Positions 469 through 17,216 of a stretch of DNA of 64,000 bases are shown piece by piece. The notes beneath the pieces were generated by a model, which saw nothing but the letters and a program-made list of their open reading frames with translations, was not told where the DNA came from and searched no databases. The stretch is taken from NCBI RefSeq assembly GCF_004570875.1, contig NZ_SPQK01000020.1, positions 1-64,000 on the forward strand, in the 5' to 3' direction. The DNA is from Blastococcus sp. CT_GayMR16. Its GTDB lineage: Bacteria > Actinomycetota > Actinomycetes > Mycobacteriales > Geodermatophilaceae. Each line of letters begins with the position of its first letter. The first letter of the stretch is position 1. The translations under genes and the position numbers were made by a program.

Positions 469-1083
469 ATGGCCCCCGGAGAAGCGACGGCGGCCGCGGC
501 GAACAGCGACGTCCTGCACTTGTTGCGCACGGGGACGGCGGCCGAGCACGAGTCCGTCGAGCGCACCCTCGACCTGCTCGACCCGGACCTGGACCGGGCG
601 CGGCTGACCGGCGTGCTCACGCGCATGCACGGTTTCTGGCAGGCGGCCGAGGCCGTCCTCGACGACTGGGCCGCCCGGTTCCCCGCCGACGCCGAGACCG
701 TCAGGTGGTTCGCGCGGCGCCGGGCCGCCCTGTTCGCCGCCGACCTGGACACCCTGGGTGCGGGCCCGGCCGACGCCGGGCCGGTCCTCCCGCCGGTCGC
801 CGACACCGACGACGCCCTCGGCCGGCTCTACGTCCTCGAGGGATCCACGCTCGGCGGCACGTTCATCGACCGCCACCTGACCGGGCTCCCCGCCCTCTCC
901 GGGGTCCGGCTGCGCTCCTTCTCCCCGTACGGCGCCGACACGGGCGCCATGTGGCACGCCTTCCGCCGCGTCACCCGGGACCACGTGGCCGGCGGCGGAG
1001 ACGCGGGCGCGATGGTCTCGGCGGCGACCGGCACCTTCCGCGCCCTCGAGCAGTGGTGCCGCCCCGCGGGCGTGGCCGCGTGA
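469..1083 (+). CDS. biliverdin-producing heme oxygenase
   Basis: 204 residues. It is predicted to open heme to biliverdin, the chromophore of the phytochrome encoded next to it. The N-terminal helix carries AEHESVE, where His27 fits the proximal heme ligand, and the C-terminal half carries ALGRLYVLEGSTLGGTFI, the distal-helix signature of bacterial heme oxygenases of the BphO/HemO type. Length is normal for the family. The stop overlaps the phytochrome start (GTGA at 1080-1083), so the two are translationally coupled, which supports a chromophore-supply role over iron scavenging. ATG at 469 is the first start; no strong Shine-Dalgarno is visible. Confidence 0.9.
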   Translation: MAPGEATAAAANSDVLHLLRTGTAAEHESVERTLDLLDPDLDRARLTGVLTRMHGFWQAAEAVLDDWAARFPADAETVRWFARRRAALFAADLDTLGAGPADAGPVLPPVADTDDALGRLYVLEGSTLGGTFIDRHLTGLPALSGVRLRSFSPYGADTGAMWHAFRRVTRDHVAGGGDAGAMVSAATGTFRALEQWCRPAGVAA

Positions 1084-3425
1084 CCGAGCCGCTGGTGGAG
1101 TTCCTCCCCGCAGGCACGCCGGTCGACCTGTCCAACTGCGAGCGCGAGCCGATCCACGTGCCCGGCAGCGTGCAGCCGCGCGGGGTGCTCATCGCCGTGA
1201 GCGACCCCGACTTCGTCGTCCAGCAGGTGTCGGAGAACCTCGGCGACCTGATCGGCGTCCACTGGCGGGCGGCGCTGGGCCGCCCGCTGACCGAGGTGCT
1301 CGGCGTCGCGGCCGCCTCGGCCGTGATCCGGTCGGCCAGCGCTTTCGGTGACCTGCGGGAGCGCAACCCCGTGGAGATCACGCTGGACGTCGACGGCGAC
1401 CCGGTGCCCGTCGACGCACTGCTCCACCGCGCGGTGATCCGGGCCGACGAGCCCGTCCCGACGGAGTTCCCGGCCGGCCGGGACCCGGGCTCGAGCCTGC
1501 TCGTGGAACTGGAGCCCGCGCGCGGCCCGCGGCCCTTCTCCTTCCCCAACACCTACCAGGCGGTGCGCGGCACGATCGGCGACCTCAACCGGGCCTCGTC
1601 GCTGCAGCAGCTCTACGACATCACTGCCACGGCGGTCCGCACCCTCACCGGCTTCGACCGCGTGATGGTCTACCGCTACGACGCCGACTACAACGGCGAG
1701 GTCGTCGCCGAGGCGAAGCTGCCGGAGCTCAACTCCTTCCTCGGCCTGCACTATCCGGCCTCGGACATCCCCGCCCAGGCTCGGGCCCTGTACGAGAAGA
1801 ACTGGATCCGGCTGATCTCCGACGTCGACTACGTGCCGGCCGGGCTGCAGCCGACCCTGCACCCCGCCAGCGGGCTGCCGCTGGACCTCACCTACTCCAC
1901 GCTGCGCAGCGTCTCGCCGATCCACCTCGAGTACCTCAGGAACATGGGCGTGCGGGCATCCATGTCGATCTCGCTGCTGCGCGACGACAAGCTCTGGGGC
2001 CTCATCGCCTGCCACCACTACAGCGGTCCGCACGCACCGCCGTATGCGACCCGGGCAGCCGCGGAGTTCCTCGGCTCCACGCTGTCGCTGCGCCTGGTCG
2101 ACCGGGCCGAGGAGGACGAGATCCGCCGGGCGCTGCGGGTCCGGTCGACCCTGGCCTGGCTGACCGCCGCCACGCTCGACGAGGACCGGCCGCTCGCCGA
2201 GACCCTGCTGGGCTCCCGCAGCCTGCTCGACCTCGTGCCTGCCGACGGCGTCGCCGTCCATCTGCAGGGCACGCGGGGCAGCCGCGGCGTGGCGCTACCG
2301 GTCACGGTCGCCGACGGGATCGCCGCCTGGGCGGCCGCCCAGGGTGACGACGTGGTCGCGACGGACTCCCTCCCGCACACGGCCGACCGGCTCGGCGTGC
2401 CGGCGGAGCTCGCTTCCGGGGTACTCGTGCTGCCGCTCCCGGAGGGCCAGTACGTGCTGTGGTCGCGCGGCGAGGCGGTGCAGCACATCGACTGGGGTGG
2501 CGACCCGCACAACAAGGCGATCGCCGAGCGCGAAGGGAACGGCGTGCGGCTGAGCCCGCGCAAGTCCTTCGACCGATGGCGGGAGACCGTCCGCGACCGC
2601 TCCGAGCCGTGGACGACGCAGCAGGTGTCGGAGGCGACCGAGCTGCGCACGCACCTGCTCGAGGCCCTCTACGCCCGGTCGCGCAGCACCGTCCGGGCCG
2701 CGGAGAGGTTGCAGCGCAGCCTGCTGACCGACCCGCCGCAGCACGATCGGCTCGAGGTGGCGGTGCGTTACGTCCCCGCTGCACCGGGGGCCCAGGTGGG
2801 CGGCGACTGGTACGACGTGTTCGGTCAGCCGGACGGCTCGACGATGCTCGTCATCGGCGACGTCGTGGGCCACGACACCGAGGCGGCCGCGAGCATGGCC
2901 CAGCTGAGGGGCCTGCTGCGCGGCATCGCCTTCGACAGCAGCGACGGGCCGGCCGCGGTGCTCGCCCGACTCGATGCCGCGACCCACGGCCTCCAGGTCG
3001 GGGCCCTGGCGACGGTCCTGGTCGGCCGGCTGGACCACGTCGGCGGACCCGCGGGCGGCATGCGCCTGCGCTGGGCCAGCGCCGGACACCTGCCGCCGAT
3101 CGTCGTCGACCCGGACGGGCGAGAGCGGCTGCTCACCGCGCCCCGCCCCGGACTGCTCCTCGGCGTCGACGCGAGTGCGACCCGGACCGACCAGGAGGAC
3201 GTCCTGGCGCCCGGGTCGACGGTCCTGCTCTACACCGACGGGCTGGTCGAGCGCCGGGACCAGCTCTTCGACGACGGCGTCACGCTGCTCGGCGAGGCCC
3301 TCGCCGACCTGCGCGGGCTGCCCGTCGGCGAGATGTGCGACGCGCTGCTCGCCCGGCTGCTGCCGGAACGGTCCATGGACGACGTCGCGCTGGTCGCCGT
3401 CCGGCTGCGCGCTCAGGCGGACTGA
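1080..3425 (+). CDS. bphP: bacteriophytochrome with C-terminal PP2C (SpoIIE) phosphatase
   Basis: 781 residues from GTG 1080, which overlaps the heme oxygenase stop; longer upstream reading is out-of-frame with that gene and lacks homology. Domains in order: PAS (about 10-130) with Cys20, the position used by bacteriophytochromes to bind biliverdin; GAF (about 140-320) with YPASDIPAQAR near 225; PHY (about 330-515) with the tongue motif PRKSF near 493; a short helix; then a SpoIIE-type Ser/Thr phosphatase (about 530-778) with GGDWYD, GDVVGHD, SAGHLPP and a final MDDVALVAV. There is no histidine kinase. Red/far-red light probably sets phosphatase activity towards an anti-sigma-factor antagonist (STAS) protein. 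That partner is inferred; a STAS gene lies at 30.1 kb but is unlinked. Confidence 0.93.
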   Translation: MTEPLVEFLPAGTPVDLSNCEREPIHVPGSVQPRGVLIAVSDPDFVVQQVSENLGDLIGVHWRAALGRPLTEVLGVAAASAVIRSASAFGDLRERNPVEITLDVDGDPVPVDALLHRAVIRADEPVPTEFPAGRDPGSSLLVELEPARGPRPFSFPNTYQAVRGTIGDLNRASSLQQLYDITATAVRTLTGFDRVMVYRYDADYNGEVVAEAKLPELNSFLGLHYPASDIPAQARALYEKNWIRLISDVDYVPAGLQPTLHPASGLPLDLTYSTLRSVSPIHLEYLRNMGVRASMSISLLRDDKLWGLIACHHYSGPHAPPYATRAAAEFLGSTLSLRLVDRAEEDEIRRALRVRSTLAWLTAATLDEDRPLAETLLGSRSLLDLVPADGVAVHLQGTRGSRGVALPVTVADGIAAWAAAQGDDVVATDSLPHTADRLGVPAELASGVLVLPLPEGQYVLWSRGEAVQHIDWGGDPHNKAIAEREGNGVRLSPRKSFDRWRETVRDRSEPWTTQQVSEATELRTHLLEALYARSRSTVRAAERLQRSLLTDPPQHDRLEVAVRYVPAAPGAQVGGDWYDVFGQPDGSTMLVIGDVVGHDTEAAASMAQLRGLLRGIAFDSSDGPAAVLARLDAATHGLQVGALATVLVGRLDHVGGPAGGMRLRWASAGHLPPIVVDPDGRERLLTAPRPGLLLGVDASATRTDQEDVLAPGSTVLLYTDGLVERRDQLFDDGVTLLGEALADLRGLPVGEMCDALLARLLPERSMDDVALVAVRLRAQAD

Positions 3426-3911: not shown

Positions 3912-5565
<1,654 letters not shown>

Positions 5566-5673: not shown

Positions 5674-6501
5674 CTAGCCGGCACCCACCTGCCCGTTCGC
5701 CACGGCCCCGCGGAGCCGCTGCGCGGGAGTGGCCCAGACGTCGGCCAGGGTCACCGTGCGCAGCCCTCGCTCGGCGATGAGCGCCAGCAGGTCGCCGTAG
5801 ACCGTGGTGACGGTGGGGTGGTTGGCGTGCCCGACGACGATCGTCTGCGCGGTGAACCACTGCCTGGCCGCGGCCATCAGCTCCTCGCCGCTCAGCACGC
5901 GGGAGTCGTCCAGGGTGCCGTTCCACATGGCGACCGTGGGGTGGCCGAGATCGGCCGCGATCCGGTCGATCCGCTCGTTCCTGGCGCCGAACGGCGGCCG
6001 GAGGAACGGGCTGTCGCGGACGCCGAACGTCGTGCGCAGGAACTCCTGGTTGCGGGTGATCTCCTCGGCCACCTCACCGTCCCCGAGGGTGGTCAGGTCC
6101 GGGTGCGACCAGGTGTGGTTGCCGAAGGCCACCTGGCCGGATTCGACCAGCGGTCGCAGCGCCGGGGCGTTGTCGGTCCAGGAGCGGTAGCACCCGTTGG
6201 GGAAGAAGGTCAGCCGCACTCCGGTGTCGGCGGCAAGCGTGGCGAACGCGGCGACGACGTCGGAGTTCGTGCCGTCGTCGATGGTCAGCGCCAGGTCGGT
6301 CCCCTCGCCCGGCAGCCCGTCCACGACCCCGACCGGGGGCGGCACCGGCACCAGCCCCGGCACCCCGATCGGTGTGACCGCGGCGGCGGGGGCCAGCACC
6401 CGGCCGGGCGTGCGCCGGACGTCGACGGGGGCGGTCTCGCGCACGAGGGCGGCGCCCGCCAGGCCGGCCGCGAGGGTGAGCAGGAACTGTCGGCGCTCCA
6501 T
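5674..6501 (-). CDS. secreted polysaccharide deacetylase (NodB domain)
   Basis: 275 residues. The N-terminus (MERRQFLLTLAAGLAGAAL) looks like a signal sequence with twin arginine. The NodB domain spans about 68-270 and has its metal and catalytic motifs: TIDDG (Asp pair), NHTWSHPDL (metal His residues) and RPPFGARN. It probably removes acetyl groups from a cell-wall or exopolysaccharide sugar outside the membrane. It is separate from rox, which starts on the same strand but is preceded by its own promoter, and divergent from the subtilase. Substrate cannot be inferred. Confidence 0.85.
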   Translation of the reverse strand: MERRQFLLTLAAGLAGAALVRETAPVDVRRTPGRVLAPAAAVTPIGVPGLVPVPPPVGVVDGLPGEGTDLALTIDDGTNSDVVAAFATLAADTGVRLTFFPNGCYRSWTDNAPALRPLVESGQVAFGNHTWSHPDLTTLGDGEVAEEITRNQEFLRTTFGVRDSPFLRPPFGARNERIDRIAADLGHPTVAMWNGTLDDSRVLSGEELMAAARQWFTAQTIVVGHANHPTVTTVYGDLLALIAERGLRTVTLADVWATPAQRLRGAVANGQVGAG

Positions 6502-6592
6502 GGGGCGGACCGTAGAACCGGCCCGACAGGCCGCCCGGAACCCGCCGTCCGACGCGCCGCAGCCGTTCGGAGCGCTAGCGGACGACTGCGTT

Positions 6593-6637
6593 CTGTAACG
6601 AACTCAGTAACAGACCGCTATACAGCACGTACAGCGG
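6593..6637. promoter_or_regulatory. two adjacent inverted repeats upstream of the subtilase
   Basis: The 268-base gap 6502-6769 contains CTGTAAC-7-GTAACAG at 6593-6613 and CCGCTATAC-5-GTACAGCGG at 6615-6637, each with one mismatch. A lower-GC stretch (TTGATATTTACC, 6639-6650) and a short C/G hairpin follow near 6650-6667. The arms look like protein-binding sites or a structured 5' leader of the subtilase-GGDEF operon. No known riboswitch class is recognised. Confidence 0.4.
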
Positions 6638-6769
6638 GTTGATATTTACCCCTCACCCCGATGGGGGGACATGGCCCAAGTCGGTGTACTCAAACCTTTC
6701 AGGACTTAACACTCCGTGCCGAACCCATTACGCACAAGGAAGTCCGAGTTCCACAAGGAGGTGCACTGC

Positions 6770-8557
6770 ATGATCAGCAACCAGCGGGGATCCACCGCTC
6801 AGGATGCGCCGGGCTACGGCGTGACCTGGGGCGGCCTTCCCCTCCACGCGCGACGGGCAATGACCGTCGCTGTCGCCAGTCTCGTGGCGGCGGGGCTGGC
6901 CGGTCCGACCGCCGCATCCGCGGCGACCACGGCTTCGGCCTCGTCGGCCGACCAGGTGTCGGTCATCGTTCGCGAGCTCGAGGGTGCCGGTAACGCGCCC
7001 GAGCGGGCGGTGTCGGCATTCGGCGGTTCCGTCGGACGTCAGCTCGACATCATGGGCGGATTCACCGCCACCGTCCCGGTCGACCGCCTCGACGCGCTCC
7101 GCGGTGTCGCGGGCGTCGCCTCGGTCACCGACGATGCCGGTCTCGCTCTGCAGAGCACCGACGTCGAGTCGTCGGCCGCTCAGGCCGGCTCGCTCTACAC
7201 GATCGCCAACCAGGTGACTGGTGCCTCGGCGATGTGGGACGCGGGCTACACCGGCAAGGGCGTCGACGTCGCGGTCATCGACTCGGGCGTCGTCCCGGTC
7301 GACGGTCTCACCGGCCGTACGAACACCAAGATCGTCTACGGCCCGGACCTGACCATGGAGAACAACGGTCCGACGAAGAACCTCGACACCTACGGCCACG
7401 GCACGGCCATGTCCAGCATCATCGCTGGCCGGGACTCCGCCGCGACCACGGTCAGCGGGAACGCCACCGACTTCGTCGGCATGGCTCCCGACTCCCGGAT
7501 CGTCAGCATCAAGGTCGCTGACGCCAAGGGCCAGACCGACGTGTCGCAGGCCATCGCGGCCATCGACTGGGTGGTCTCGAACCGCAACAAGAACGGCCTC
7601 AACATCCGGGTGCTGAACATGTCGTTCGGTACCGACGGTGTTCAGGACTACGTGCTCGACCCGCTGGCCTACGCGGCCGAGCAGGCCTGGCACAAGGGCA
7701 TCGTGGTCGTCGTCGCCGTCGGCAACGAGGGCTTCGGTACGGCCAAGGTCAACAACCCGGCCTACAACCCGTACCTGATCGCCGTCGGCAGCAACAACGC
7801 CAACGGCACCGCCACCACGGCGGACGACGTCGTCTCCACGTTCTCGAACGACGGTGACGGCACCCGCAACCCCGACGTCGTCGCCCCTGGTGACCACGTG
7901 GTCGGTCTGCGTGCGGCGGGGTCCTACCTGGACACGACGTACCCGACCGCCCGCATCGGCGAGCGGCTCTTCCGTGGCAGCGGCACCTCGCAGGCCGCCG
8001 CTGTGGTGTCCGGTGCCGCGGCGCTGCTGATCCAGCAGCGTCCGAACATCAAGCCCGACCAGGTCAAGGCGCTCCTCACCGGGACGGCTTCGGCCATTCC
8101 CGGTGCGACCGCCGCCCAGCAGGGCGCCGGCCTGATCGACCTGGCGAAGGCCAAGGACGCTGCCACCCCCGACAAGGTGCAGAACTTCAAGTTGTCGACG
8201 GGTATCGGCTCCCTGGAGCTCTCGCGTGGTTCGGTGCACGTCACCGTCGGTGGCCGTGAGGTCCGCGGCGAGGTCGACGTGCGTGGTCGTGGCGTGGACG
8301 TTCGCGCCCTGGCCGCCGGCCTCCGCAACAGCGCCAACTGGAACGGCATGAGCTGGTCCGGGATGTCGTGGTCCGGCATGAGCTGGTCCGGCATGAGCTG
8401 GAGCGGCATGAGCTGGTCCGGCATGAGCTGGAGCGGCATGTCCTGGTCCGGCATGAGCTGGAGCGGCATGTCCTGGTCCGGCATGAGCTGGTCGGGCATG
8501 TCCTGGTCCGGCATGAGCTGGTCCGGGATGTCCTGGTCCGGCATGAGCTGGTCCTAA
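6770..8557 (+). CDS. secreted S8 subtilisin-like protease with GMSWS-repeat tail
   Basis: 595 residues. ATG 6770 is preferred over 6716 because AAGGAGGTG (6755-6763) precedes it. A signal peptide occupies about 1-50, ending in ASAA. A short propeptide-like region (VSVIVRELEG onward, about 60-120) follows, then the catalytic domain with Asp171 (VAVIDSG), His210 (YGHGTA), an oxyanion Asn (VAVGNEG) and Ser407 (GSGTSQA), so the enzyme should be active. Residues from about 526 form 14 exact-length repeats of GMSWS reaching the stop, with no membrane anchor or sorting signal after them. The stop lies inside the Shine-Dalgarno of the GGDEF-EAL gene. Substrate unknown. Confidence 0.92.
   Translation: MISNQRGSTAQDAPGYGVTWGGLPLHARRAMTVAVASLVAAGLAGPTAASAATTASASSADQVSVIVRELEGAGNAPERAVSAFGGSVGRQLDIMGGFTATVPVDRLDALRGVAGVASVTDDAGLALQSTDVESSAAQAGSLYTIANQVTGASAMWDAGYTGKGVDVAVIDSGVVPVDGLTGRTNTKIVYGPDLTMENNGPTKNLDTYGHGTAMSSIIAGRDSAATTVSGNATDFVGMAPDSRIVSIKVADAKGQTDVSQAIAAIDWVVSNRNKNGLNIRVLNMSFGTDGVQDYVLDPLAYAAEQAWHKGIVVVVAVGNEGFGTAKVNNPAYNPYLIAVGSNNANGTATTADDVVSTFSNDGDGTRNPDVVAPGDHVVGLRAAGSYLDTTYPTARIGERLFRGSGTSQAAAVVSGAAALLIQQRPNIKPDQVKALLTGTASAIPGATAAQQGAGLIDLAKAKDAATPDKVQNFKLSTGIGSLELSRGSVHVTVGGREVRGEVDVRGRGVDVRALAAGLRNSANWNGMSWSGMSWSGMSWSGMSWSGMSWSGMSWSGMSWSGMSWSGMSWSGMSWSGMSWSGMSWSGMSWSGMSWS
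8345..8554 (+). repeat. 15-bp coding tandem repeat, 14 units (GMSWS)
   Basis: Fourteen 15-base units of the form GGCATGAGCTGGTCC, each encoding G-M-S-W-S, run without interruption to the last sense codon of the protease. Variation is confined to synonymous positions (AGC/TCC/TCG for Ser, GGC/GGG for Gly), so the peptide pattern is conserved while the DNA has drifted. That argues for selection on the protein repeat. Confidence 0.95.
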
Positions 8558-8570
8558 GGAGGTGACGACG

Positions 8571-11201
8571 ATGACGAACGGTGTCGAGGTGAAGGATTCA
8601 CGCGTGTCCCGCCTGGGCGTTCCCCAGCGGATCATGCTGCTCACGGCCTCTGTGGCTGCGATTGCGGTGGCGCTGTTCGTCATCGTCGTCCGCACGCTGC
8701 CCGGAGCCCCCACGGCTCTGACCCTGCCGTGGGTGCTCTGGGCCGCCGCCTTCACGATCAGTGAGGCGCTGGTCGTGCACGTCCAGTGGCAGCGCGAGGC
8801 GCACACGTTCTCCATGGGCGACCTCGTCCTGGGGGCCGGCCTGCTCCTCGCCACGCCGCGCGAGCTGGTGATCGCCCAGGTGCTCGGCTTCGCCGTCACC
8901 CTGGTCGTCCAGCGCCGGCAGCGCGGCATCAAGCTGGCGTTCAACGTGGCCATCTCGGCCCTCGGCGGATCGCTCGCCACGATCGTCTTCGCGCTGCTCT
9001 CCGGCCCTCTCGGGTTGTGGGACTGGCTGGCGGCGCTGTTCGCCGTCCTGGTCATCACCGTGACCGCCGACCTCTGCATCTTCGCCGTCATCAGCCTGTC
9101 CGAGGGGCGTGCCCACCTGGCGCCCCTGCTGGAGATGCTGGCGCTGTCCCTGCCCTTCACGCTCGGCTCGGCCGCGGTGGGCCTCGTGCTCGCCCGGTCG
9201 GCCGTCAGCGACCCCGCGGCGCTGGCCCTGCTCGCGCTGCCCACCTTCCTCATCGTCGCGGCCTACCGCGCCTACACCGGTGCCCGCGAGCAGCGGGAGA
9301 ACCTGCGCCTGCTGCACGAGGTGACCTCGCTGCTGCACTCCAACGGCGACAGCCAGGAGGCGCTCGGCGACTTCCTCGACTCGGTGCGTTCGGCGTTCCG
9401 CGCCGACATGGCCGAGCTCGTGCTGCTCGGCCCCGCCGGCCGCGAGGGTGCGACCGTCAGCCGCAGCCGCGAGGGCACCGAGCCCGTCGTCATGGCTCCC
9501 CTCGACGACCCCGAGGACCACCACCGCCTGCTCCGCCTGGCCACCGCGTCGGGTGCGCTCACCACGCGCACCGGCACCGGCCGGGGCCAGCACCTGGACG
9601 GCTACGCGGCCGGCCGTGGGCTCAAGGACGCCATGGCGGCGGCCCTGCGCACCGACGACCGCGTGCACGGGCTGCTGCTCGTCGGCGGCCGCCTCGGTGA
9701 CGTGAGCACCTTCAGCACGAGCGACCTCGCCCTCCTGGACACGTTCGCCCGCCACGTGGCGACGTCGCTGGAGCGCGGTCGCCTCGAGGAGAACCTGCGC
9801 CAGGTCACCGACCTCAAGGAGCAGCTGCGGCACCAGGCGCTGCACGACCCGCTGACCGGGCTGCCCAACCGCACCCTGTTCCTAGACCGGGTGCGCCACG
9901 CCGTCGACACCGCCGGCCGCACCCGCGTCTGGCCGGCCGTGGTCTACCTGGACCTCGACGGGTTCAAGCCGGTCAACGACACCTTCGGCCACGAGGCCGG
10001 CGACGTCCTGCTGCGCACGGTCGCCGACCGTCTCCGCGGGTGCCTGCGCCCCGCCGACACCGCCGCCCGTCTCGGTGGTGACGAGTTCGTGGTGCTGCTG
10101 AACGGTCCCATCGACCGCTTCGGCGTCGACCGCGTGATCGAGCGCATCCGCACCCAGCTCGACGTGCCGGTGCTGCTCGGCGAGGGCGTCGTCACCACCG
10201 TCGGCGCCAGCATCGGGGTCGCCATCGGCGACCTCGACATCCCGGACGCCGACACCCTCGTCCGCAACGCCGACATCGCGATGTACACCGCCAAGCGCTC
10301 GCTCGGCAACGACTACGTGATCTACGAGCCGGGCATGGGCGACACGACCGTCACCCGCAAGGACTCCGCCGCCGAGCTGGCCGCGGCCATCCGCAACGGT
10401 GAGATGCGCACCGTCTACCAGCCGCTGATCGACATGCGCACCGGCCGGCCGATCGGGGCCGAGGCGCTCGTCCGCTGGCAGCACCCGGTCGACGGGCTGC
10501 GCTCGCCCGACCAGTTCATCGGCCTCGCCGAGGACAGCGGCCTGATCACCGAGATCGGTGCCGTGGTGCTCAACGACGCGTGCCACCAGGCCGCGCGCTG
10601 GGTCGCGGAGTCCCCGGACCACACCGACCTGCTGGTGACGGTGAACCTGTCCGCGCGTCAGGTCGGCGACGAGAAGATCGTCGAGCAGGTCAGTGCGGCG
10701 CTCGCGTCCTCGGGCCTGGACCCGCACCGGCTGGTCCTCGAGATCACCGAGACCGTCCTGATGCACGACCGCGACGCGGCTGCCGCCACGCTGTGGCTGC
10801 TCAAGGGCCTCGGCGTCCGGATCGCGATCGACGACTTCGGCACCGGCTACTCGTCGCTGGCCTACCTGCGCCGCTTCCCGATCGACATGCTCAAGGTCGC
10901 CCGCGAGTTCGTCGACGGTCTCGGCCGCGACGCCCACGACGACGTCATCACCCACGCGATCGTGGAGCTGGCCAACACCCTGGGCCTGCTCACCGTCGCC
11001 GAGGGCATCGAGACGGCGCAGCAGTCGGAGACGCTGGCCGCGCTGGGCTGCGACATCGCCCAGGGCTACCTGTTCTCGCGTCCGATCGAGGCCGAGGCGG
11101 TCAGCCTGGTCATGGCGGCGGCGACGTGGCCGGACATGCCCCAGTCCGAGGCCGCGGCCGCCATCGAGGCGGGCCCGGCGGAGCTGGCCTCGGCCAGCTG
11201 A
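8571..11201 (+). CDS. membrane GGDEF-EAL c-di-GMP turnover protein
   Basis: 876 residues. ATG 8571 is chosen because AAGGAGGTG (8556-8564) overlaps the protease stop and would overlap a start at 8562. Several hydrophobic segments span about 20-235 (a MASE-like sensor region), followed by a GAF-like domain (about 240-400), a GGDEF domain (about 415-575) with intact GGDEF near 502, and an EAL domain (about 600-850) with EALVRW near 629 and DDFGTGYSSL near 752. Both catalytic motifs are intact, so either synthesis or breakdown of c-di-GMP is possible. Coupling to the protease is by an SD that contains its stop codon. Confidence 0.93.
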   Translation: MTNGVEVKDSRVSRLGVPQRIMLLTASVAAIAVALFVIVVRTLPGAPTALTLPWVLWAAAFTISEALVVHVQWQREAHTFSMGDLVLGAGLLLATPRELVIAQVLGFAVTLVVQRRQRGIKLAFNVAISALGGSLATIVFALLSGPLGLWDWLAALFAVLVITVTADLCIFAVISLSEGRAHLAPLLEMLALSLPFTLGSAAVGLVLARSAVSDPAALALLALPTFLIVAAYRAYTGAREQRENLRLLHEVTSLLHSNGDSQEALGDFLDSVRSAFRADMAELVLLGPAGREGATVSRSREGTEPVVMAPLDDPEDHHRLLRLATASGALTTRTGTGRGQHLDGYAAGRGLKDAMAAALRTDDRVHGLLLVGGRLGDVSTFSTSDLALLDTFARHVATSLERGRLEENLRQVTDLKEQLRHQALHDPLTGLPNRTLFLDRVRHAVDTAGRTRVWPAVVYLDLDGFKPVNDTFGHEAGDVLLRTVADRLRGCLRPADTAARLGGDEFVVLLNGPIDRFGVDRVIERIRTQLDVPVLLGEGVVTTVGASIGVAIGDLDIPDADTLVRNADIAMYTAKRSLGNDYVIYEPGMGDTTVTRKDSAAELAAAIRNGEMRTVYQPLIDMRTGRPIGAEALVRWQHPVDGLRSPDQFIGLAEDSGLITEIGAVVLNDACHQAARWVAESPDHTDLLVTVNLSARQVGDEKIVEQVSAALASSGLDPHRLVLEITETVLMHDRDAAAATLWLLKGLGVRIAIDDFGTGYSSLAYLRRFPIDMLKVAREFVDGLGRDAHDDVITHAIVELANTLGLLTVAEGIETAQQSETLAALGCDIAQGYLFSRPIEAEAVSLVMAAATWPDMPQSEAAAAIEAGPAELASAS

Positions 11202-11873: not shown

Positions 11874-12950
11874 CTACTGGTCGTAGTCCACGGTAACTGC
11901 GTCAGTTGTAGGGAGGGACTGGCAGGTGAGGACGTAGCCGGCCGCGACCTCTTCGGCCTCGAGGGCGTAGTTGCGCCGCATCGTCACCTCGCCCTCGGTC
12001 ACCTTCGCCCGGCAGGTGCCGCACACCCCGCCCTTGCACGCGAACGGCAGGTCCCCGCGGACCTTCTGCGCGGCGTCGAGCACCGGCACGTCCCGGGGCA
12101 GGGTCAGCGGGGTGGCCCGGCCGTCCAGGACGACGGTCACCTCGCTGCTCGGCCCCGTCACCGTGGCCGCGTCGCCGCGCGCCGGCTCCGGCGGGACGTC
12201 GTCGACGTAGAACAGCTCCTGGTGCACCCGCTCACGCGGCACCCCGAGCTCGGCCAGGAGTTCCTGCGCGTCGGTGACCATCCCGTGCGGACCGCACAGC
12301 CACCAGTGGTCGACGCTCCCGGCGTCCAGGAACGCGTCGAGCAGGGTGCGCAGCCGCTGTCCGTCGAGCCGGCCACTGGTCAGCTCGGCGTCGCGCGCCT
12401 CGCGGGAGAGCACGTGCACGAGTTGCAGCCGCGGCCCGTGGCGGTCCTTCAGGTCGGCCAGCTCGTCGGCGAACATGACGGTGTTGGTCCTGCGGTTGCC
12501 GTAGAACATGGTCACGGTCGACTCGCCGTCCTGCAGCGCCGTCGCCGCGAGCGACAGCGCGGGGGTGATCCCGGAACCGGCGACGACGAACACGTGCTCG
12601 CCCGGCGCGGTGAGGTCGGCGGTGAAGCGCCCCTTCGGCGTCAGCACCTCGATCTCGTCACCGGGGCGCACCTGGTGGACCAGCCACGAGGAGAACAGCC
12701 CGCCGGGCACCTCGCGCACGCCGATCCGCAGCGAGGCCCCGGCGGGCGCGCAGATCGAGTAGTCGCGACGCTCATCGCGGCCGTCGTCCGTGCGGCGCAG
12801 GGTGATCGACTGCCCCGGCCGGAACGCGTAGTCGGCCGCGAACTCCGGCGGGACGTCGAACGTGACCGCCGCCGCGTCGTCGGTCAGCTGGTCCACCCGC
12901 GCCACGCGCAACGGGCGGAACGTCGCGCGCCGTGGGATCACCGCAGTCAC
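11874..12950 (-). CDS. paaE: phenylacetyl-CoA epoxidase reductase subunit PaaE
   Basis: 358 residues from GTG 12950. It passes electrons from NADPH to the PaaABC oxygenase. The order is an FAD-binding domain (RRDYSICAP near 85), an NAD(P)-binding domain (VFVVAGSGITPALSLA near 135) and a C-terminal plant-type [2Fe-2S] ferredoxin domain with CKGGVCGTCRAKV and LTCQSLP. Its start shares one base with the paaD stop (TAGTG), and GAAGGAG of the paaD end serves as ribosome-binding site. Last gene of the paaABCDE operon. Confidence 0.95.
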   Translation of the reverse strand: MTAVIPRRATFRPLRVARVDQLTDDAAAVTFDVPPEFAADYAFRPGQSITLRRTDDGRDERRDYSICAPAGASLRIGVREVPGGLFSSWLVHQVRPGDEIEVLTPKGRFTADLTAPGEHVFVVAGSGITPALSLAATALQDGESTVTMFYGNRRTNTVMFADELADLKDRHGPRLQLVHVLSREARDAELTSGRLDGQRLRTLLDAFLDAGSVDHWWLCGPHGMVTDAQELLAELGVPRERVHQELFYVDDVPPEPARGDAATVTGPSSEVTVVLDGRATPLTLPRDVPVLDAAQKVRGDLPFACKGGVCGTCRAKVTEGEVTMRRNYALEAEEVAAGYVLTCQSLPTTDAVTVDYDQ

Positions 12951-13462
12951 TAGATCTCCTTCACGTGCTCGAACGGCTCCTGGCAGCTCCGGCACCGGCG
13001 CAGCGCCTTGCATGCCGTCGCGCTGAATTCGCTGAGCTCCTCGGTGTCGGCGGACCCGCACAGCGGGCAGGACGCCGTCCGGTGCGTCGTCCCCAGCTGC
13101 AGCGGAACCGGGCCCTCGGATCGGACCGGCGCTAGACCGGGCGGCGCGATCCCGGCCTCGAGGAGCTTGCGGCGACCCTCTGGAGTGATCCAGTCGGTGC
13201 TCCACGCGGGCGTGAGCACCGTGCGGACGTCGACGTCGGCGAAGCCCGCCTCGTGCAGCGCGTGCACCAGATCCGCCCGCATGACCCCCATCGCCGGGCA
13301 GCCGGTGTAGGTGGGGGTGATCTCGACGACGACGGAGCCGTCGCGCTCGATCCGCACGTCGCGGAGGACCCCCAGGTCGGACAGGGAGATCATCGGGAGC
13401 TCCGGGTCGGTCACCGACTCAGCGACGACGCGGGGGTCGGCCGTGCTGGTCATCATGCTCAC
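12950..13462 (-). CDS. paaD: phenylacetate degradation protein PaaD
   Basis: 170 residues. The N-terminal half is a MIP18/DUF59-type domain (VTDPELPMISLSDLGVL, YTGCPAM). The C-terminal half has a four-Cys cluster, CPLCG then CKALRRCRSC. PaaD is needed for maturation of the epoxidase complex, probably in iron-sulfur delivery. GTG 13462 overlaps the paaC stop (GTGA), the same arrangement as elsewhere in this operon. ATG 13456 or 13453 are possible alternatives. Confidence 0.93.
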   Translation of the reverse strand: MSMMTSTADPRVVAESVTDPELPMISLSDLGVLRDVRIERDGSVVVEITPTYTGCPAMGVMRADLVHALHEAGFADVDVRTVLTPAWSTDWITPEGRRKLLEAGIAPPGLAPVRSEGPVPLQLGTTHRTASCPLCGSADTEELSEFSATACKALRRCRSCQEPFEHVKEI

Positions 13463-14370
13463 CAGGTCGCCTGCGGGTGGGTCCGGGCCAGGCCCTGCAG
13501 CTCCTCGAGCAGCGCCGGCAACTCCGGGCCGTGTCGTCCGAGCCGGCCGCCCGGCGCGGCGTCCGCCGGCCAGGCGGGCAGCCGCAGCGTCGCCCGCGTG
13601 AGCACCTCGTCGAGCACCGACCGCACCTCGTCGCGGACGCTCGCAGGGTCGACGGCGACGCCCGCCGCGGTCAGCCGGGCCTCGACCTCGGTCGCGGTGA
13701 ACAGGTCGGCCAGCAGCGGCCAGACCGCATCGACGCCGGCCTGGGCTCGCTGGTGCGACTCCGCCGTCCCGTCGCCCAGCCGCAGCAGCCAGCGCCCCGC
13801 ATGGTCGCGGTGATAGGCGAGTTCGTTGACGCCCTTCGCGGCGATCGCCGCGAGCACCGGGTCCCGGGAGGCGCGCAGCCGGGCGAACAGCGCCAGCCGC
13901 CAGGTGGCGGCGACCAGCAGCCGGGCGATCGTCTGCGCGAAGTCGCCGTTGGGGGCCACCACGAGCGCGGTAGAGCGGAACTCGTCGACGTCCCGGAAGT
14001 AGGCCAGCGCGTCCTCGTCGGGGATGGTGTCGCCGGCCAGCGTCCGCGAACGGCCCAGCACACCCACCGAGCCGGCGCGAGCCAGCAGCAGCCGGGCCTG
14101 GCCGAGCAGGTCCAGCGCGATGTTGGCCAGCGCCACCTCCTCCTCGAGCTCCGGGGCGTTGGTCACCCACTGGGTGAGCCGCTGGGCGAGCACGAGGGCG
14201 TCGTCGCCGAGCATCAGGCAGTAGGCGCCCAGGTCGGCAGGGTCGACGCCGTCGGGGACGGTCGTGTCGACGCCGGCCAGCGGATCGTCGAACCCGGTAC
14301 CGAACGCCCAGTGCCCCTCACCGCCGTGCGCCTGGTCGAGAGCGTCGTAGACCGTTTCCTCATGCGCCAT
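13459..14370 (-). CDS. paaC: phenylacetyl-CoA epoxidase structural subunit PaaC
   Basis: 303 residues. PaaC is a ferritin-like partner that has lost the di-iron site and stabilises PaaA. Family segments include LMLGDDALVLAQRLTQW, LANIALDLLGQAR, and KGVNELAYHRDHAGRWLLRLGDGT. The start at 14370 (MAHEETVYDAL) has GAGAGGG 5 bases upstream. The frame is open further, to 14472, but that would read through the repeat lying between paaB and paaC. This is the one junction in the operon that does not overlap; a copy of the dispersed repeat fills the 98-base gap. Confidence 0.94.
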   Translation of the reverse strand: MAHEETVYDALDQAHGGEGHWAFGTGFDDPLAGVDTTVPDGVDPADLGAYCLMLGDDALVLAQRLTQWVTNAPELEEEVALANIALDLLGQARLLLARAGSVGVLGRSRTLAGDTIPDEDALAYFRDVDEFRSTALVVAPNGDFAQTIARLLVAATWRLALFARLRASRDPVLAAIAAKGVNELAYHRDHAGRWLLRLGDGTAESHQRAQAGVDAVWPLLADLFTATEVEARLTAAGVAVDPASVRDEVRSVLDEVLTRATLRLPAWPADAAPGGRLGRHGPELPALLEELQGLARTHPQATW

Positions 14371-14408
14371 GCGAACCCTCTCTTCCGGGCACGGAGTGCT
14401 CGGCCATC

Positions 14409-14471
14409 GGCCTTCTCTCAGGGGCCCGCCCGCCGAGGAACGAGGCGGGTGGGGGGAGAGGAGGTCCTTCA
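14409..14471 (-). repeat. dispersed hairpin repeat, copy A (paaB-paaC gap)
   Basis: On the minus strand it starts at the paaB stop (TGA-AGGACC), continues CTCCTCTCCCCCCACC, then an imperfect CCGCCTCG/CGAGGCGG-like centre, GGGCGGGCCCCTGAGAG and AAGGCC. The outer arms (AGGACCTCCTCTC and GAGAGAAGGCC) can pair. It matches copies B to E in order of motifs: AAGGACC, a C-run, a central CTCG palindrome, GGGCCCCT, GGCCG. It may weaken transcription into paaCDE. Confidence 0.75.
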
Positions 14472-14834
14472 CATGTGGGGGACGGTGTCCGGGATCTCGT
14501 AGAACGTCGGGTGCCGGTAGACCTTGTCGCCGTTGGGGGCGAACATCGGGTCCTTCTCGTCGGGGCTGGAGGCGCTGATGTGCTCGGCCTTCACCACCCA
14601 GATGCTCACGCCCTCGTTGCGCCGGGTGTAGACGTCGCGGGCGGCGTGCACCGCCATCTCGTCGTCGGGCGCGTGCAGGGAGCCGACGTGCACGTGGTTG
14701 AGCCCCCGCTTGCCGCGGACGAACACCTCGTAGAGCGGCCAGTCGCGGCGGCCCCGTCCAGGGGCCCGCCCCGAGCTTGCGAGGGGTGGGGAGGACGGGG
14801 TGTTTTTGCCGCCCTCCGCTGTCATGTCGCTCAC
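14469..14834 (-). CDS. paaB: phenylacetyl-CoA epoxidase subunit PaaB with repeat-derived N-terminus
   Basis: 121 residues. PaaB bridges PaaAC units in the ring-1,2-epoxidase. From [20 protein letters not shown] to [11 protein letters not shown] the protein is standard (about 95 residues). Before that lie about 27 extra residues: VSDMTAEGG followed by a Ser/Pro/Arg/Gly-rich stretch encoded by repeat copy B (14750-14807). GTG 14834 overlaps the paaA stop (GTGA) and has GGAGAA 7 bases upstream, so translation does run through the repeat. The extension should be a flexible tail. Confidence 0.93.
14750..14807 (-). repeat. dispersed hairpin repeat, copy B (inside paaB)
   Basis: Minus strand: an A-run and ACACCCCGTCC, CCCCACCCCTCG, CAAG, CTCGGGGCGGGCCCC, TGGACGGGGCCGC. 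The arms CCCCGTCC and GGACGGGG pair exactly, and the inner CCCCTCG...CGGGG pairs too. Same architecture as copies A, C, D and E. It is in frame within the 5' end of paaB. Confidence 0.8.
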
Positions 14835-15781
14835 GGCTGCTTCTCCGCGTAGGCGGTCGCCGCCTCGGTGACCCACGCGTTGTCGTCGCGGGCGGCGCGC
14901 CGGCGGGCGATCCGCTCGTCGTTGCACGGGCCCTCTCCGGCGATCACCCGCTTGAACTCCGCCCAGTCGATCGCGCCGAAGCGGTAGTGCCCGCTCTCCG
15001 GGTCCAGGGTGAGCTCCGGGTCGGGCAGCGTGACGCCGAGGAACTCCGCCTGCGGCACCGACATGTCCACGAACCGCTGCCGCAGTTCGTCGTTGGTGTG
15101 CCGCTTGACGCCCCACTTCATCGACTGGGCCGTGTTCGGGCTGTCGTCGTCCGGTGGGCCGAACATCATCAGCGACGGCCACCACCACCGGTCGACGGCG
15201 TCCTGCACCATCGCGCGCTGCTCGGGGGTGCCGCCCATCATCGTCATGAGGAGCTCGTAGCCCTGCCGCTGGTGGAAGGACTCCTCCTTGCAGACGCGGA
15301 TCATCGCCCGCGCGTACGGGCCATAGGAGCTGCGGCACAACGGCACCTGGTTGCAGATCGCCGCGCCGTCGACCAGCCAGCCGATGACGCCGACGTCGGC
15401 GTAGGTGAGCGTCGGGTAGTTGAAGATCGAGCTGTACTTCTGCCGGCGCTCGATGAGCTTGTCGGTGAGATCGGCCCGGTCGGCGGCGAGCGTCTCCGCG
15501 GCGGAGTACAGGTACATGCCGTGGCCGGCCTCGTCCTGGACCTTGGCCAGCAGGATCGCCTTGCGCCGAAGGCTGGGGGCTGCCAGCAACCAGTCGCCCT
15601 CGGGCTGCATCCCGATGATCTCGGAGTGCGCGTGCTGGGCGATCTGCCGGATCAGGCCGTTGCGGTAGCCCTCGGGCATCCAGTCCCGGGGCTCGATGCG
15701 GTGGCCGGCCGCGATCGTCGCGTCGAAGTACGCCTCGAGAGTCGCGTCGTCGAGAAGGCTGTCCCGCGTCGGGGCGCTCAT
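14831..15781 (-). CDS. paaA: phenylacetyl-CoA epoxidase catalytic subunit PaaA
   Basis: 316 residues, the di-iron catalytic subunit that epoxidises the aromatic ring of phenylacetyl-CoA. Ferritin-like helices carry the metal ligands, visible as [13 protein letters not shown] and [15 protein letters not shown] (E-x2-H pairs). ATG 15781 has GGGAG 6 bases upstream. It is the first gene of paaABCDE and divergent from paaK. The intergenic region carries the TetR-type operator. Confidence 0.96.
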
Positions 15782-15803
15782 CGCATCTCCCTCAGAGCAT
15801 TTA

Positions 15804-15819
15804 CTGACCGATCGGTCAG
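15804..15819. promoter_or_regulatory. palindromic operator between paaA and paaK
   Basis: CTGACCGATCGGTCAG is a perfect 16-base palindrome in the 103-base divergent region, of the form bound by TetR regulators of phenylacetate and fatty-acid genes. It lies 23 bases upstream of paaA and 66 bases upstream of paaK, so a bound repressor could silence both. The TetR protein encoded at 17209 is the obvious ligand; the inducer is probably phenylacetyl-CoA by family precedent. Confidence 0.75.
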
Positions 15820-15884
15820 GAATAGTGTGGCCCACGACACCGCGGCAGCACAAGGTCGGCACGACGCGACCCGGAGGGACGGCG

Positions 15885-17216
15885 ATGACGACGGAGAGCA
15901 CCGCACGGCCGGGGCTCGCCCCGGACCCCGGGACGCTGGACCCGGCGGAGCGGATGGGCCTCGACGAGCTGCGCGCGGCCCAGCTGACCCGGCTGCAGTG
16001 GACACTCCGGCACGCCTACGACAACGTGCCGCACTACCGGCAGGCCTTCGACGCCGCCGGCGTCCACCCCGACGACTGCCGGGAGCTGGCCGACCTCGCG
16101 AAGTTCCCGACGACCGGCAAGGCGGACCTGCGGGAGAACTACCCCTTCGGCATGTTCGCCGTCCCCCAGGACCGGATCCGCCGGGTGCACGCCTCCTCCG
16201 GCACGACCGGGCGGCCGACCGTCGTCGGCTACACCGAGGGCGATCTGGACACCTGGGCCACGGTCGTGGCCCGGTCGATCCGGGCCGCGGGTGGCCGTCC
16301 GGGCGACGCGGTGCACGTCGCCTACGGGTACGGGCTGTTCACCGGCGGGCTCGGCGCCCACTACGGCGCGGAGAAGCTCGGCTGCACCGTCATCCCCATC
16401 TCCGGTGGCATGACCCCGCGCCAGGCGCAGCTGATCACCGACTTCCGGCCCCGGGTGATCATGGTGACGCCGTCCTACATGCTCGCCGTGATCGACGAGC
16501 TGGAGAAGCAGGGCGTCGACCCGCGGTCGACGTCGCTGGAGATCGGCATCTTCGGCGCCGAACCGTGGACCGACCAGATGCGCCAGGAGATCGAGGCGCG
16601 CCTCGGCATCGACGCGGTCGACATCTACGGGCTGTCGGAGGTCATGGGGCCGGGCGTGGCCCAGGAGTGCGTCGAGACCAAGGACGGCCTGCACATCTGG
16701 GAGGACCACTTCTACCCGGAGGTCGTCGACCCGCTGACCGGCGAGGTGCTGCCGGACGGCGAGCGGGGCGAACTGCTGTTCACCACGCTGACCAAGGAGG
16801 GCATGCCGGTCATCAGGTACCGCACCCGCGACCTGACCCGACTGCTCCCCGGCACCGCACGCCCGGGGATGCGCCGCATGGAGAAGGTCACCGGCCGCAC
16901 CGACGACATGATCATCCTGCGCGGGGTGAACCTGTTCCCGACGCAGGTCGAGGAGGTCGTCCTGCGGACGCCGGGGCTGTCGCCGCACTTTCGCCTGGTA
17001 CTGACCACCCGCGGCCGGCTCGACCACCTCACCGTCGAGGTGGAGGCACGCACCGACTGCGCCGACGACCGCCGGAGCAACGCGGCCGAGGAGGTGTCGG
17101 CCGCGGTCAAGGAGACCGTCGGGGTGAGCGTGGACGTCGTCGTCGTCGACCCCGAGACGCTGCCCCGCTCGGTGGGCAAGCTGCAGCGGCTGCTGGACCA
17201 GCGCGCCCGTGACTGA
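15885..17216 (+). CDS. paaK: phenylacetate-CoA ligase
   Basis: 443 residues, ANL superfamily adenylating enzyme that converts phenylacetate, ATP and CoA to phenylacetyl-CoA, the first step of the pathway. The AMP-binding motif is [15 protein letters not shown]; other family segments are [21 protein letters not shown] and [17 protein letters not shown], and the C-terminal lysine region [11 protein letters not shown] is present. ATG 15885 follows GGAGGG by 6 bases; the frame is open upstream only through the operator. It overlaps the TetR gene by 8 bases. Confidence 0.96.

Follow-up and report, generated by a model that had tools for sequence, protein, structure and literature searches.

The locus analyzed here appears, from its sequence and from that of its relatives, to be one copy of a recurrent actinobacterial gene pair, in which a predicted exported protein carrying tandem tryptophan (W) pentapeptides is encoded together with a MASE9-like membrane sensor. 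The pair occupies positions 6770 to 11201 of the window, i.e., the whole stretch of 64,000 nucleotides from Blastococcus sp. CT_GayMR16 that was analyzed. Named relatives come from Blastococcus, Geodermatophilus and one Frankiales MAG, and a search with the window subtilase (P0001) found matches in 29 of 41 genomes at E <=0.001.

The gene pair in the window

The features of the locus are:

6652..6669, forward strand: palindromic element CTCACCCC-N-A-N-GGGGGGA in the subtilase leader, aligned with some variation in five orthologue leaders
6770..8557, forward strand: subtilase (S8 peptidase), 595 amino acids; Pfam Peptidase_S8, E 2.8e-40
7253..8131, forward strand: catalytic domain of the subtilase; Pfam match, residues 162-454
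8177..8330, forward strand: linker GSLE..RGS.HV...GE.D from the catalytic domain to the tail; residues conserved in relatives
8345..8554, forward strand: tail of 14 perfect GMSWS repeats; tail profile, E 9.3e-13
8555..8563, forward strand: TAA stop overlapping the Shine-Dalgarno sequence AAGGAGGT; read directly
8571..11201, forward strand: membrane sensor with GAF, GGDEF and EAL domains; Pfam and reading
8619..9311, forward strand: MASE9-like polytopic sensor domain, the conserved partner of the W-repeat; profile A1
9354..9776, forward strand: GAF domain; Pfam GAF_3, E 1.9e-7
9837..10307, forward strand: GGDEF domain with intact GGDEF motif; Pfam, E 2.1e-38, motif read
10374..11084, forward strand: EAL domain with intact EAL, DDFGTGYSS, AEGIE and QGY motifs; Pfam, E 1.5e-72, motifs read

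The first gene encodes a member of the peptidase S8 family by both its Pfam match and its Asp-His-Ser triad, and a signal-like hydrophobic segment was located by eye, without a predictor, at approximately residues 29-51. Residues D171, H210, S407 and N319 are the same in all 45 W-tailed relatives that were aligned; because of this invariance of the active-site Asp, His, Ser and Asn, the W-tailed subtilases look like active enzymes. In the linker, G480, R486, G487 and G500 are each present in at least 90% of the 45 relatives. Solved structures matching the window subtilase are subtilisin-type chains; none has sequence similarity to the sensor domain or to the tail at E <=1. The nearest named NCBIfam model is the mycosin of type VII secretion (TIGR03921), which all 45 W-tailed subtilases match at E <=0.001. 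The window subtilase is not assigned to it, with 150.1 bits against a cut-off of 278.75, and differs from mycosins in its W tail and sensor partner. Among plasmid records, the sensor domain finds no match, and the window subtilase finds only S8 peptidases of 33-36% identity in five records.

The tail consists of 14 contiguous 15-nt units, all of which encode GMSWS with zero amino-acid differences, while the codons vary between units (AGC, TCC or TCG for serine, GGC or GGG for glycine). The AGC block of serine codons is unreachable from the TCC/TCG block by a single base change, and both blocks are mixed under one protein sequence. The sequence-only reading of this DNA had described 14 uninterrupted repeats, constant at the protein level with varying codons, and the reading of 8345-8554 agrees with it. 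Within the 4.52-Mb genome, a 27-base degenerate DNA pattern spanning two neighbouring repeats has 13 matches, all of them in the window tail, and the reversed control pattern has none.

We compared the tail with repeat families of similar appearance. Pentapeptide repeats (PF00805 and others) share the period of five; their consensus has Leu or Phe at the centre and one small position, and their fold is a right-handed quadrilateral beta-helix. In contrast, the tails have W at the centre, and the supposedly small position varies freely and is often R, Q or N. At E <=0.01, PF00805 matched two of 28 tails, PF13599 one and PF13576 one; the L150 tail reached a whole-protein score of 24.2 against the PF00805 cut-off of 20.2, with no single stretch passing, and the window tail matched none of the three families at E <=10. 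A beta-helix of this kind was considered but looks unlikely, as a minority of tails score against these families and R, Q or N so often takes the small position. A Lamprin match of the L049 tail (35.5, cut-off 34) was taken as a low-complexity resemblance. A tryptophan-rich region on a subtilisin homologue also recalls the W_rich_C domain (PF07483), named on some cyanobacterial subtilisins (PMC2605481); PF07483 is absent from the Pfam matches of the scanned tails. By these profile comparisons, the W tail belongs to no accepted family. No description of the tail or of the pairing was found in the literature searched, most subscription papers being outside its reach.

The junction of the two genes reads ..TGG TCC TAA GGAGGTGACGACG ATG, with the subtilase stop TAA at 8555-8557, the Shine-Dalgarno sequence AAGGAGGT at 8556-8563 and the sensor start ATG at 8571. 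The GTG at 8562 is unlikely to be the sensor start, as it falls inside the Shine-Dalgarno sequence. Direct reading thus bears out the earlier claim that the stop codon of the protease lies within the Shine-Dalgarno sequence of the c-di-GMP gene, whereas the "fixed ratio" of both products claimed with it is not conserved: in L048, a close relative, 443 nt separate the subtilase stop from the start of the membrane domain, and in four loci the intergenic region contains strong hairpins (z -4 to -11). Folding located these very stable GC-rich intergenic hairpins at:

L048, 8703-8830
L062, 10037-10140
L065, 9721-9830
L068, 7960-8040

Folding gave no strong hairpin between the two genes of the window copy, and none in the partial stretch folded for L063.

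Five orthologues show strong conservation of the subtilase leader (6640-6769), which includes a GTACTC block and a CCCC/GGGG palindrome. In the own genome, the pattern of this palindrome occurs at one place when at most one mismatch is allowed. A riboswitch was considered for the leader and rejected, with no Rfam match within 6500-6800.

The sensor domain has several hydrophobic segments with short loops by hydropathy average, and near-invariant K and N in 90 relatives. Its likeness to MASE9 (PF20972) is that of a polytopic N-terminal domain placed before signalling outputs; the W-repeat partner is the difference. MASE9 is matched at E <=0.01 by 23 of the 90 relatives (best 5.7e-8), and the window copy is among the 67 unmatched ones; likewise, the MASE9 family search of the own genome gave zero matches at E <=0.01. 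The partner sensor in L074 scores 24.6 bits against a cut-off of 24.3.

In the surroundings of the pair, a divergent polysaccharide deacetylase gene (5674-6501) lies directly upstream of the subtilase leader. Further upstream are a phytochrome (PAS-GAF-PHY) with SpoIIE phosphatase output (1080-3425) and, just before it, a small gene (469-1083) that looks like a haem oxygenase and has no Pfam match at E <=1e-8. An apparent phenylacetate-degradation cluster, with a ferredoxin reductase-like protein, a PaaA/PaaC protein and an AMP-ligase, occupies 11874-17216.

Linkage of the tail and the membrane domain

Using profiles of the membrane domain (A1) and of the tail (A2), with 28 rows each, we searched the same 246 Actinomycetota genomes. 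The membrane domain was found in 55 genomes and the tail in 26, all of them among the 55. By hand count, the tail matches make up 37 places in the 26 genomes, 30 of which lie within 3.5 kb of an A1 match. It should be noted that the 246-genome draw supplied 18 of the 28 A2 rows, which account for 17 of the 37 places; with these 17 removed, 13 of 20 tail places adjoin a sensor. When the 14 genomes that supplied A2 rows are excluded, along with G000 and the artefact genome G239, 231 genomes remain; 40 of these have the sensor, and all 10 that have the tail are among the 40 (p 8.7e-9). Because each profile was built from members beside the other, the searches favour the paired type, and this selection persists after removal of the A2 rows, as the sensors that went into A1 mostly came from paired loci.

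The tail is found mostly on subtilases that adjoin the sensor. Across 24 genomes that have tails, an A2 tail is present on 30 of the 33 subtilase matches next to a sensor, compared to 3 of 137 others (hand counts; Fisher 1.4e-26); without the A2 rows, the numbers are 13 of 15 and 3 of 137 (Fisher 2.6e-14). The 170 S8 matches are per-genome totals, with the sensor-adjacent ones counted among the matches listed and G199 and G239 left out. Of the three sensor-adjacent subtilases lacking an A2 match, two have W tails on reading (G041:C20, G079:C81), so the profile misses some real tails.

Of the seven remaining tail places, three are at contig ends (G079:C204, G199:C4 and G199:C7, the last with a weaker sensor near it). 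A 47-codon A2 match near a sensor (G199:C16) was excluded from the 30. The tail match at G239:C77 is an artefact, an out-of-frame reading of an ATDDM-repeat protein, and the tail-only matches at L034 and L035 were likewise judged to be artefacts. Two W-tailed subtilases (L177, L179) have no sensor in the fetched stretch and sensors elsewhere in their genomes.

Of 16 genomes searched within the genus, 13 have both the tail (E <=1e-6) and the sensor (E <=1e-40); the other three, one of which is 84% complete, are below both thresholds. All 18 tail loci of the 16 genomes are within 3.5 kb of a sensor match (hand count). The expectation that orthologues keep the tail and that the gene pair is conserved thus held.

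The fetched loci contain 106 sensors, and for 64 of them a W-subtilase lies no more than 2.6 kb away. This fraction varies with the way in which the loci were chosen. A subtilase search supplied most of L046-L085, where 27 of 30 sensors are paired; L116-L175 came from the sensor search and has 31 of 60 paired, and the mixed set L176-L195 has 6 of 16. In all 64 pairs, the subtilase is on the same strand and upstream of the sensor, with a median of 65 nt from its stop to the start of the membrane domain. Five further sensors have a W-subtilase in another layout or at a contig end; the other layouts are a downstream subtilase (L133), a divergent one (L140) and a sensor placed first (L051), and the pairs in L079 and L085 are cut by contig ends.

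Many of the 106 sensors have no W partner in view, including two further sensors of the own genome (L116, L117), and the sensor in L125 adjoins a divergent subtilase with no W tail seen. Conversely, L050 has a W-tailed subtilase and no sensor within its 18-kb stretch. The sensor in L116 (contig 17) is a close paralogue that has GGDEF without EAL and no W-repeat neighbour; sensor matches with similarly short frames in other genomes of the genus may resemble it.

Changing outputs and protease-free W-repeats

The sequence-only reading had linked the protease to c-di-GMP turnover. The gene pair itself is conserved; c-di-GMP is not the constant part. In 69 scanned W-partnered sensors, we counted GGDEF in 39, EAL in 38, HATPase in 28, HisKA in 27 and SpoIIE in one (L074, which also has HATPase); this count left out L047, L054, L070, L192 and L175 and kept L193, whose W partner is doubtful. 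All five scored GGDEF/EAL motifs are present in 27 of 37 GGDEF-type partners. Since other copies have HisKA or SpoIIE outputs, c-di-GMP is only one of several outputs, and we rejected it as the defining link. Next to W-tailed subtilases, the N-terminal membrane domain of the partner is kept while the cytoplasmic part changes; judging from these domain comparisons, this membrane domain is the constant partner of the W-repeat.

The protease is not constant either. Where no W-subtilase is near, four sensors are preceded on the same strand by a small W-repeat protein with a signal-like N-terminus:

L152: 159 amino acids, word GISWVGAQ
L171: up to 154 amino acids, word GISWT
L172: 142 amino acids, words GISWT/GFSWT
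L163: 81 amino acids, word EVRWN; 4-nt overlap with the sensor gene if the sensor starts at 4440

These small proteins beside sensors indicate that the W-repeat can persist without a protease. Their repeat period is not always five. The proteins in L152, L171 and L172 are homologues from three species of one genus, found in 3 of 35 genomes searched in that family; the L163 protein, searched in 21 genomes of its family and in 246 of the phylum, matched one genome each time, its own. Tiny divergent W-repeat frames in L176 and L193, without a clear signal peptide, are doubtful. At L175 and L182, other frames read as well as the W frames, which were therefore not taken as genes. L176 and L180, two contig ends of one genome, read like the halves of one gene that encodes bare GVNWA repeats and stands head-to-head with a MASE9-like GGDEF-EAL gene of low score.

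Diversity of the tail words

Around the better matches of the window subtilase, the tail words differ (GMTWS, GVSWS, GLSWN, SAKTW, SSTWA and others), and the W at every fifth residue is kept. In the last 160 residues of 63 paired subtilases, the distance from one W to the next is exactly five in 890 of 1052 intervals, and the repeat number covers a wide range, with counts of 2 to 37 such intervals. The 64 pairs have 54 dominant words, some of them ties within irregular tails. The words differ in all 13 tabulated genomes having two or more pairs with separate sensors. Where tandem subtilases precede one sensor, they have a common word (L127, L130) or nearly the same one (L158), and the unpaired L050 and the paired L059, from one genome, have the same word SGVSW. 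Insulated address words, as a set, would show such diversity, but concerted evolution among the tandem repeats and recent duplication would produce it too.

If tail and sensor had coevolved in a special manner, their distances could be expected to be correlated beyond those of the rest of the protease. In 62 pairs (L047 and L056 were left out), the partial Mantel correlation of tail and sensor distances given the catalytic domain is 0.12 (p 0.011), and that of tail and catalytic-domain distances given the sensor is 0.18 (p 0.002). The tail-sensor correlation is no greater than the tail-catalytic one; thus, the test gave no signal of special coevolution of tail and sensor, or of specificity between them.

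Discussion

We favour, with confidence that is evenly balanced, the interpretation that each W-repeat serves its own sensor as an extracytoplasmic cognate ligand or tether. A subtilase would be the usual carrier of the repeat, and the outputs fed by the sensor are modular. The exported subtilase would present the W-repeat tail outside the membrane, and may release or destroy the repeat by proteolysis. The sensor would read the state of the protease or the supply of repeat through its MASE9-like domain, and its output would be c-di-GMP synthesis or breakdown here, and histidine-kinase or SpoIIE phosphatase signalling in other genomes. In this scheme we infer export, binding, the direction of signalling and proteolytic release from sequence patterns. 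The arrangement has the appearance of peptide-pheromone systems whose sensor kinases are polytopic (AgrC/ComD type) and of pheromone precursors that contain repeats, as in yeast alpha-factor; the common features are an exported repeated word next to a polytopic sensor, and words that diverge between pairs under an unchanged architecture. As differences, the repeat here is of great length and in most copies forms part of a protease, the sensor domain resembles MASE9, and a free peptide is putative.

The strongest of the alternatives, which we regard as unlikely but deserving of weight, is that the W-repeat anchors the exported protease to the cell surface or wall, while the sensor detects something else and the operon only co-regulates the protease and surface behaviour. 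Aromatic repeats of period five with polar spacers would suit surface binding, and the broad range of repeat numbers, the lack of special tail-sensor covariation in the partial Mantel tests, and the few W-tailed subtilases without a sensor are all compatible with an anchor. W-repeat proteins that adjoin the same sensor family without any protease, and the co-absence of tail and sensor in genomes of the genus, would not be expected of a general anchor, however. Nor would the lack of an A2 match (a profile that missed two real adjacent tails) on 134 of the 137 subtilase matches that are not next to a sensor.

Control from the inside out appears improbable. Here, the cytoplasmic nucleotide or phosphorylation state would hold or release the tailed protease via the membrane domain, as in LapD-LapG, where an exported protease likewise acts with a membrane GGDEF-EAL protein. 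A protease gene adjoining a membrane GGDEF-EAL gene follows the same logic, and the catalytic residues conserved in 45 of 45 relatives agree with it. LapD, however, has degenerate GGDEF and EAL motifs, whereas the motifs are intact in the window copy and, for all five, in most GGDEF-type partners. HisKA is present in 27 of 69 partners, and kinases normally receive rather than send; some W partners have no protease to be controlled. LapG-type enzymes are cysteine proteases, and the enzyme here is an S8 serine protease with a W-repeat tail and possible HisKA or SpoIIE outputs of its partner. As to identity, the window sensor was rejected as a LapD: it scores 108 bits against a cut-off of 1020, in the GGDEF-EAL part only, and all five motifs are intact. 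Finally, that the tail is a C-terminal pro-region, an export or folding aid or the enzyme's own substrate, removed at maturation and without a signalling role, is very improbable: the conserved linker before the tail would suit it, and removal of a C-terminal extension is known for secreted subtilases (PMC3480457), yet it leaves the linkage to one sensor family and the protease-free W-repeats unexplained.

The interpretation of the W-repeat as a cognate ligand or tether can be extended, more tentatively, to a diversified extracytoplasmic signalling vocabulary of tandem W pentapeptides in Actinomycetota. Several insulated pairs per cell would then be possible, each with its own word and its own MASE9-like sensor, with a carrier protease or a bare repeat, and with swapped outputs. 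To our knowledge, the inputs of MASE-type membrane sensors that precede c-di-GMP enzymes are mostly unknown. If the vocabulary exists, the W-repeat would be a class of ligand for a MASE-type sensor; a recurrent genetic partner of one MASE-like domain across the phylum, found while the carrier and the output change, is a concrete candidate for such a ligand.
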